59,692 nt of DNA from an uncultured bacterium (GTDB lineage Bacteria; Patescibacteriota; Saccharimonadia; Saccharimonadales; Saccharimonadaceae), in assembly GCA_903900345.1 (NCBI GenBank), contig CAIUMO010000022.1, forward strand, positions 1 to 59,692. Reading direction: 5' to 3'. A program made the translations under genes and the position numbers. How positions within the stretch are numbered: the stretch's first letter is position 1; every line of letters starts with the position of its first letter. Shown piece after piece: positions 26,193 through 28,403 of this stretch. The notes under the pieces are model-generated. The model was given only the letters and a program-made list of their open reading frames with translations, was not told the DNA's origin and did no database searches.

Positions 26193-27272
26193 ATGCAAAC
26201 ACTTCTCAAAAATCTGACAACATTATTATCGCAAATTGATGCGGCTTTTGAGCGTTTAGATATTGCTAAAAAGCAAGAATTGATAGCGGCTTTGACCGAG
26301 CAATTATCTCATTCGGAAGTTTGGAATAATCCGACTGACGCCCAGACTAAGAACAAACAGCTAGCAGCCTTATCGGGTACGGTTGATCCATGGGTGACGT
26401 TACGTATCCAAGTTGCCGATATTATTGAATTTATTAAATTGGGTGATGATAGTATGTCGCAAGAATTTGAAACCGAAGCCAAGGCGCTCGAACAAGATTT
26501 CAATAAACTGCGCAAAGATCTGCTATTTCATGGTAAATACGATGATTATAATGCAATCATCAGATTAAGCGCCGGTGTTGGTGGAACTGATGCTCAGGAT
26601 TGGACTGAAATGTTGGAACGTATGTATCTGCGTTGGGCGGGAAAGTCGGGCCTGAAAGCGGCTATTATTGAACGTTCAGCGGCCGAAGAAGCTGGTATCA
26701 AATCGAGTGTGATTGAAATATCTGGCTCACATGCCTATGGTAAATTACGCAGTGAAAATGGCGTTCATCGTCTGGTGCGGCTTAGTCCATTTAACAGCGA
26801 TAATCTGCGCCAAACTAGCTTTGCATTGGTTGAAATTTTGCCGCAAATTGACACGCCCGAAGAAGTTCAAATAGATGACAAAGATTTAAAAATTGATGTT
26901 TATCGATCAGGCGGAAAAGGTGGTCAGTCGGTCAACACAACTGATAGTGCAGTTCGAATAACGCATATTCCGACTGGTATTGTTGTGGCAATTCAGAATG
27001 AACGATCGCAATTGCAGAATCGCGAAATGGCGATGAAAATCTTGCGATCCAAATTATTACAATTAAAACTTGAACAACATGTTGCTGATATTACAGACCT
27101 GCAAGCAGGTGAGTCAGCTAACTGGGGTTCACAGATCCGTAATTATGTTTTGCACCCATATACTTTAGTCAAAGACACGCGAACTAAACATGAAACTAAC
27201 AACGCTCAATCGGTGCTGGATGGTGACATTGATGGCTTTATTGATGCCTTTTTAGAATCAGAAAAATCTTAG
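26193..27272 (+). CDS. prfB: Peptide chain release factor 2
   Basis: [52 protein letters not shown]. Confidence 0.93.
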   Translation: MQTLLKNLTTLLSQIDAAFERLDIAKKQELIAALTEQLSHSEVWNNPTDAQTKNKQLAALSGTVDPWVTLRIQVADIIEFIKLGDDSMSQEFETEAKALEQDFNKLRKDLLFHGKYDDYNAIIRLSAGVGGTDAQDWTEMLERMYLRWAGKSGLKAAIIERSAAEEAGIKSSVIEISGSHAYGKLRSENGVHRLVRLSPFNSDNLRQTSFALVEILPQIDTPEEVQIDDKDLKIDVYRSGGKGGQSVNTTDSAVRITHIPTGIVVAIQNERSQLQNREMAMKILRSKLLQLKLEQHVADITDLQAGESANWGSQIRNYVLHPYTLVKDTRTKHETNNAQSVLDGDIDGFIDAFLESEKS

Positions 27273-27660
27273 TCTCAACAAGCCCATCTCGCTTCACGGG
27301 TCCTGCCGCTCATTACACCCTCCAAGTTTCTCTTTTCTGCCGCCTCCCCTCACTTACCTTTATTCTAAGCAGCACACTCTACCAGGTACGCTTTCGCCCG
27401 TTACAATCTAACGGGGAAAACGTAGCCTATGGCGTTCGGCTGGTCCTGGTGGACCACAGTCTGCTCAGTAATAAATGTAAGTGATGGTAGACGTATTTAA
27501 ATTATCTTCAAAACAATACGACTCTTTGGCATAAACATCAGACCTAAACGGGTGACGCGAGGCGGGGCGGCACCCGATTTACTACAAAATGGTAATCCAT
27601 TTTTATAAATCAGGGGCGGACCGAGCGGCAGGACCCGTGAGATGGGCGGGGCCTGCTTTA
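27273..27660. ncRNA. Candidate large structured noncoding RNA; strand and family undetermined
   Basis: No convincing ORF; 27282-27289 pairs with 27640-27647 and 27295-27311 with 27623-27639; internal hairpins CCCGTTA-caatc-TAACGGG, TGGTCC-tggt-GGACCA, CGGGTG...CACCCG, AAAATGG-taat-CCATTTT. Confidence 0.6.
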
Positions 27661-27719
27661 GATCTATAGCGGCAAAAACTATCATTCATCATCTTACTTA
27701 TGTTATAATTGACCGAGTA

Positions 27720-28403
27720 ATGATACTGCTAGATAGGGTAACAAAATCATACGGCAAAGACTTAAGCCCGGCTGTTGACCGAGTTAGTTTATTCATTGAA
27801 CCACGTGAATTCGTGATTTTAGTTGGTACTAGTGGTGCTGGCAAATCGACCTTATTAAAACTATTGACCCGTGAAGAAAAACCAACCAGTGGCAAAATTG
27901 TGGTTGGCGGTATTGATTATGACACACTCAAAGATAATCATATTCCAATGCTACGCCGCAAAATTGGCGTTGTCTTTCAGGATTTTAAACTACTGCCGCA
28001 ACGAACTGTGTTCGAGAATATCGCCTTTGCACTAGAGATCGCTGGTATGACTAGGCGAGAGATCAAAAATACTGTACCTAAAGTGATCGAATTAGTCGGA
28101 CTAGCCGGCAAAGAAAAACAATTTCCGCATCAGTTATCCGGTGGTGAACGTCAACGAGTGGCAATTGCTAGGGCAGTTGTTCGCCAACCCAAGATTTTAA
28201 TTGCTGATGAGCCGACTGGTAACTTGGATCCAAAACACAGTTGGGATATTATCCGCTTGTTGGAAAAGATTAATAAATACGGTACGACAGTCCTGTTGAC
28301 TACGCATAATGCCGATATAGTAAACAAGCTCAAACGACGTGTGATTACGCTTGACCATGGCAAAATTACTGGCGACCAAGCTGAGGGGAGTTACAGACAA
28401 TAA
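27720..28403 (+). CDS. ftsE: Cell division ATP-binding protein FtsE
   Basis: GTSGAGKSTLLKLLTREEKPTSGKI, VVFQDFKLLPQRTVFENIAF, LSGGERQRVAIARA; next to ftsX. Confidence 0.93.
   Translation: MILLDRVTKSYGKDLSPAVDRVSLFIEPREFVILVGTSGAGKSTLLKLLTREEKPTSGKIVVGGIDYDTLKDNHIPMLRRKIGVVFQDFKLLPQRTVFENIAFALEIAGMTRREIKNTVPKVIELVGLAGKEKQFPHQLSGGERQRVAIARAVVRQPKILIADEPTGNLDPKHSWDIIRLLEKINKYGTTVLLTTHNADIVNKLKRRVITLDHGKITGDQAEGSYRQ

Follow-up and report, generated by a model that had tools for sequence, protein, structure and literature searches.

The window, a stretch of 59,692 nucleotides from an uncultured bacterium of the Saccharimonadaceae, carries prfB, ftsE and an ftsX-like gene. The interval between prfB and ftsE is occupied by a composite block, in which two structured modules lie between terminal inverted repeats. 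The features of the locus are as follows:

26193..27272, plus strand: prfB, the upstream neighbour, an open reading frame whose orthologs adjoin ftsE in relatives
27276..27660, minus strand as drawn with module A first: the whole composite element, outer ends approximate; blastn homology among the copies of this genome ends near these limits, with unrelated flanks, and most orthologous prfB-ftsE gaps lack the element
27279..27311, no strand: terminal inverted repeat distal to module A, CAAGCCCATCTCGCTTCACGGGTCCTGCCGCTC, the reverse complement of the other end
27312..27332, no strand: tail from module B to the distal terminal repeat, common to the copies at C1:71843 and C14:1-200
27333..27495, minus strand: module B (type B1), a branched structured unit; covariance model R2, 77.9 bits
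27496..27547, no strand: linker between A and B; the A-to-B order and the linker are kept in composites of several genomes
27548..27638, plus strand by wobble asymmetry (its covariance model uses the minus strand): module A, a 91-nt palindromic structured unit; covariance model R1, 96.9 bits
27623..27660, no strand: terminal inverted repeat at the module A end, where it serves as the outer stem of that module
27704..27709, plus strand: TATAAT, the conserved −10-like element of ftsE, just outside the element; TTATGNTATAAT lies 5' of ftsE in almost all relatives
27720..28403, plus strand: ftsE, the downstream neighbour, its start set by relatives, with 227-aa homology from 27720 on

The initial annotation had described the block as a candidate large structured noncoding RNA with a long closing stem. 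The stem pairs exactly where it had been placed: GCCCATCT (27282-27289) is complementary to AGATGGGC (27640-27647) and CACGGGTCCTGCCGCTC (27295-27311) to GAGCGGCAGGACCCGTG (27623-27639), the two parts being separated by a 5-nt bulge, CGCTT. This closing stem corresponds to the terminal inverted repeats of the element, one end of which also forms the outer stem of module A. The folding energy of the 386-nt block is −176 kcal/mol on the minus strand (z of −9.7 versus dinucleotide shuffles) and −154 kcal/mol on the plus strand (z of −8.6), and none of 100 shuffles folded as well; both the stems and the folding are far beyond chance. The block is, as had been noted, GC-richer than its surroundings, if modestly (0.47-0.50 versus about 0.39-0.43), and devoid of a credible open reading frame, the longest being 62 aa. 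The hexamer TATAGA, put forward as a minus-strand −10 element, is present at 27663-27668, one base off the position first given, but its role as a promoter is without support.

A blastn search of the same genome with the block returned 17 pieces, with homology ending at the element limits. When these copies are compared with each other, homology is confined to the element, the flanks are unrelated, and the interiors are swapped. The element is thus dispersed, with a size of approximately 350 to 390 bp. The terminal inverted repeats of complete elements in this genome measure roughly 33 to 40 bp, and, with up to 2 mismatches allowed, their 17-nt core has 15 matches in the genome, whereas the reversed core, used as a control, has 0. 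Terminal repeats 300 to 345 bp apart form three complete pairs, namely, that in the window and those at C29:35369-35681 and C1:71854-72153. Between the shared ends the interior varies, with module B1 in the window and at C1:72k and an unrelated module D at C29:35370, while a type B2 follows module A in copies without a distal repeat, some of them truncated at contig ends. In other genomes, module A usually occurs alone, and module B is also found alone; where both are present, the order A-linker-B is kept, and other structured units can replace A.

Several variants accompany these copies. Module D (CCTGGAACCC..GACAGGGCGCCGGGGCCC..GGAGCGAAGC) lies in the interior of one element of this genome (L088, 1587-1790), and strings similar to it are present in two other genomes (L014 near 1700 and L016 near 1650). 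At L040 and L041, the position upstream of module B is occupied not by module A but by a palindromic unit C (TCGAGGACTACCYGAACCC), and that of L040 contains AACCAAGGTCGGACCCTGGTT, which is similar to the REP next to the Y1 gene in that genome (L338). Short forms of module A, 42 nt long and lacking exactly the inner hairpin, are found at L091, L092, L093, L156, and L114:855-896; one such form lies in frame within a tlyA gene.

Two covariance models were built, R1 for module A (27548-27638) and R2 for module B (27333-27495). They recover 12 copies of module A and 17 of module B in this genome, counts that are approximate because many copies lie at contig ends. Repeats tend to occupy that position in draft assemblies. 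Matches to the DNA of the block were obtained in 34 of 100 relatives; with the models, module A was found in 36 of 150 relatives and module B in 18 of 100. Within the genus, 24 of 28 genomes (this one counted) carry module A, with 1 to 14 copies each, and an even sample of the phylum yielded 4 genomes of 380 and one weak match. In that sample, module A is almost restricted to this genus and the family around it, concentrated in the former and scattered in the latter, and the named contigs with model-confirmed copies are mostly from Candidatus Saccharibacteria or from metagenome-assembled genomes (MAGs). A wider host range that emerged from an exact-pattern scan (Elusimicrobia, Streptomyces, and others) was not confirmed by the covariance model. 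This includes an A-like string, GGGTCCTGNCNNNNNGTYYRCCCC, in the Elusimicrobia MAG NC_groundwater_1151, which occurs on at least eight contigs (L212, L218, L222, L225, L226, L236, L242, and L286), was not confirmed as module A by the model, and possibly represents another repeat family. The 101 copies of module A examined range from 42 to 125 nt, mostly 82 to 93 nt, and some are identical at unrelated sites. Their orientation relative to the neighboring genes is unbiased (18 ++, 21 −−, 18 +−, and 13 −+), and a cis-regulatory role judged by orientation was rejected.

In most relatives the gap between prfB and ftsE measures 25 to 63 nt, in one case 10 nt, and is empty of the element. In the window the element lies between the prfB stop codon and the ftsE promoter, both of which are left intact. 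In the gap of one relative, G016, module A stands alone, in the orientation opposite to that of the window. Unrelated inserts, including apparent small open reading frames, occupy the gap in different species (L053, L061, L062, L072, L077, and L079). The prfB-ftsE gap is an insertion hot spot.

Module A is also found inside protein genes, where 24 of the 101 copies overlap an open reading frame of at least 60 aa and 14 lie within long, convincing genes. The host proteins, identified with Pfam, are CysS, TopA, DnaX, RecJ, a TrmA-like methyltransferase, MnmA, MutM, Dus, and TlyA. Most of the in-gene copies read one common peptide, RVTxGGAAP...KEGADxAAGP, in the plus sense of the window; the reverse sense, AGPxxxSAP...GAAPxxATR, is less frequent. 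The CysS and TopA orthologs of relatives align on both sides of the insertion and lack exactly the inserted residues. The length of module A is divisible by 3 in 12 of the 14 in-gene copies versus 44 of the 87 elsewhere (P = 0.019, the copies not being independent). In the predicted structure of CysS, the insert (residues 218 to 243, carried by only two rows of the alignment) is a low-confidence loop with a pLDDT of about 36 to 40, whereas the enzyme has a mean of 84.5; the prediction thus gives a confident enzyme with a disordered loop at the insert. The TopA of another species, G012 (L378), has a different in-frame insert, GKVATLQSNLQPEFDKASGPLFEPGAKPALRGS, in the same loop that holds the module A insert in the TopA of G004. 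The inserted peptides are probably tolerated rather than useful.

The homologs display abundant compensatory changes in both halves of the block. For module A (101 copies, 94 distinct), 93.6% of the cells pair, 14 of the 20 pairs have changed on both sides, with a covariation score of 0.375, versus 0.121 for shuffled alignments and at most 0.118 for slid structures. For module B (43 distinct copies), 36 of the 44 pairs have changed on both sides, with a score of 0.657 versus 0.193 when shuffled; each alignment was fitted to its own model, which favours the modelled structure. The pattern of substitution shows that folding is under strong selection in each module. There are also invariant unpaired bases.

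The mismatches carry information on the strand, as an A.C mismatch on one strand is a G.T pair on the other. On the model (minus) strand, module A presents 41 A.C versus 6 G.T cells, or 30 versus 6 if each genome and pair is counted once, and module B presents 20 A.C versus 121 G.T cells, of which 86 G.T are left without the near-invariant pair 92-154. The model strand allows G.T, a bias of the fitting that works against the strand result for A and in favour of that for B. Module A thus seems to fold on the plus strand of the window and module B on the minus strand. If this is right, it is hard to reconcile with one noncoding RNA that carries both. The asymmetry is compatible with both RNA and single-stranded DNA, as G.T wobble pairs are better than A.C in single-stranded DNA too.

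The copies are dispersed with unrelated flanks, the element is absent from orthologous gaps, and module A is inserted in frame into unrelated genes. With a probability of about 0.86, the block belongs to a multicopy set of palindromic mobile elements, non-autonomous and particular to one lineage of Saccharibacteria, of which one copy has been inserted between the prfB stop codon and the ftsE promoter. The element has terminal inverted repeats of about 33 to 40 bp, the structured module A, of about 90 nt, at one end, and an interior that is also structured and can be swapped, in this case B1; its spread would be by transposition in trans. Folding would be needed since the moving or recognised form would be a single-stranded hairpin, possibly of RNA. 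Hairpin tips may be preferred targets, because copies of module A are unusually often situated inside locus-specific, terminator-like inverted repeats (17 of 98 with arms of at least 8 nt, versus 3.9% in shuffled flank pairs).

The most plausible candidate for the mobilising enzyme might be a Y1/HUH transposase that acts on DNA hairpins. A Y1 transposase is present in 19 of the 36 genomes that bear module A and in 26 of the 114 others (P = 0.0014, a comparison confounded by kinship), and within the genus the association is not evident (15 of 24 versus 2 of 4). RAYT was rejected as the carrier of module A, since the short palindromes that flank the genes at 20 Y1 loci are other sequences, proper to these genes. 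Almost all of these RAYT-like genes, of about 210 aa (L326-L345, with the copy of this genome at G000:C10:12069-12296), have short perfect palindromes at their flanks, which vary from genome to genome (TTGCAAGGATTATCCTTGCAA, AAGGACGGACCTT, and AACCAGGGTCCGACCCTGGTT), an arrangement that indicates REP/RAYT pairs in Saccharibacteria. This draft genome, in which many copies lie at contig ends, was searched for an autonomous partner with matching ends, and no pair of ends spanning a long element was retrieved. The ends of the element vary between copies, and the genomes compared include no near-identical empty site at which a target-site duplication would be visible. The apparently opposite folding strands of A and B sit badly with their moving as one unit, and individual copies may have been exapted as RNAs or terminators.

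A more far-reaching formulation, tentative and rather doubtful, is that A and B are mobile units selected to fold either as RNA or as one strand of DNA, serving as interchangeable cassettes between common ends in a modular Saccharibacteria family that spreads via a hairpin intermediate and gives rise to new peptide loops in the essential enzymes of these very small genomes. It is unlikely that the modules are mobile elements acting at the RNA level, through recognition or processing of a folded transcript (plus strand for A, minus strand for B), for instance, in the manner of a retro-element or as a processing or termination signal. The G.U-type asymmetry is what RNA would give, and the invariant unpaired bases and the frequent location of A inside terminator-like inverted repeats point the same way; RNA is nevertheless not required, given that single-stranded DNA has the same preference for G.T, and the copies show no orientation bias relative to genes.

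An undescribed class of large structured noncoding RNA, functional at this locus as one transcript of about 370 nt, would account for the very strong fold, the covariation in both halves, and the A-to-B order kept in several genomes. It is very improbable, as A occurs mostly alone and B also alone, interiors are swapped between copies, the two modules favour opposite strands, no promoter or orientation is conserved, module A lies within protein genes, and the locus is empty in most relatives. The part of the initial annotation that holds is that the block is structured and undescribed, with covariation in both halves and no Rfam family, whereas a single large noncoding RNA is unsupported.

The same annotation had offered, for the minus strand, an RNase P RNA that is divergent or reduced, from faint similarities of short stretches and the shape of a large folded RNA. 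This can be set aside almost entirely. An ordinary rnpB is located on another contig of the same genome (G000:C11:35585-35979), matching the whole type A model RF00010 with 256 bits, and the block is multicopy (12 A and 17 B copies), not single copy per genome; together these refute the RNase P reading. The block resembles RF00010 only in size range and heavy folding. An Rfam scan gave nothing at gathering thresholds and, at E ≤ 10, only two chance-level matches to eukaryotic families, with none to RNase P in a focused scan at that same limit. Furthermore, the longest RNase P-like stretch falls in module B, whose conserved pairs give another structure. No tRNA or tmRNA was detected in the block, and the composites from other genomes had only chance-level matches to other Rfam families. 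Chance or an ordinary intrinsic terminator or inverted repeat between two operons, for which the site between a stop codon and a promoter would be suitable, is equally close to nil given the folding z-scores near −9 and the multicopy homologs with compensatory changes.

The mobile palindromic element favoured here is best compared with three known systems. The Rickettsia palindromic elements (RPEs) are short palindromic repeats of several families that lie between genes and in frame in unrelated genes, where they are read as a common peptide (PMC10969869). Module A is likewise a dispersed palindromic repeat, mostly of 82 to 93 nt versus about 100 to 150 bp in RPEs, which is also intergenic and is inserted in frame in unrelated protein genes as a common peptide. 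It differs in the unrelated host phylum, Saccharibacteria, and in that the element of this genome has terminal repeats, swappable structured interiors, and pronounced compensatory evolution. The element would accordingly work like an RPE, a likeness drawn from the description of RPEs. It resembles bacterial miniature inverted-repeat transposable elements (MITEs) in being 300 to 400 bp long, noncoding, and multicopy, with terminal inverted repeats and no transposase inside. Unlike MITEs in general, its interior has a strongly conserved structure, and no parent transposon with matching ends was found in the draft genome. It shares palindromic hairpins with REP/RAYT systems, and RAYT-like Y1 proteins (HUH motif NHFHL, YIHLNP, about 210 aa) are found in many of the same genomes; however, at the 20 loci these genes are flanked by other short palindromes (about 20 bp), not by module A or B, and module A, at about 90 nt with internal loops, is unlike a REP.

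The searchable literature, with most subscription papers outside its scope, describes no such repeats from Saccharibacteria or from the candidate phyla radiation. The copies constitute a real, lineage-restricted, and apparently undescribed family of modular palindromic mobile repeats, and a noncoding RNA reading of the prfB-ftsE locus alone is unlikely. In-frame palindromic repeats in conserved genes are known mainly from Rickettsia. A review of MITEs leaves open whether in-frame insertion occurs in other prokaryotes (PMC10969869), and here it is found in housekeeping enzymes of at least nine kinds, in a phylum that is unrelated to Rickettsia and has reduced genomes. Such repeats break the assemblies of these genomes, with many copies at contig ends, and can be mistaken for new classes of noncoding RNA. 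The strand-specific covariation makes their mode of movement, as a DNA hairpin or as RNA, testable.
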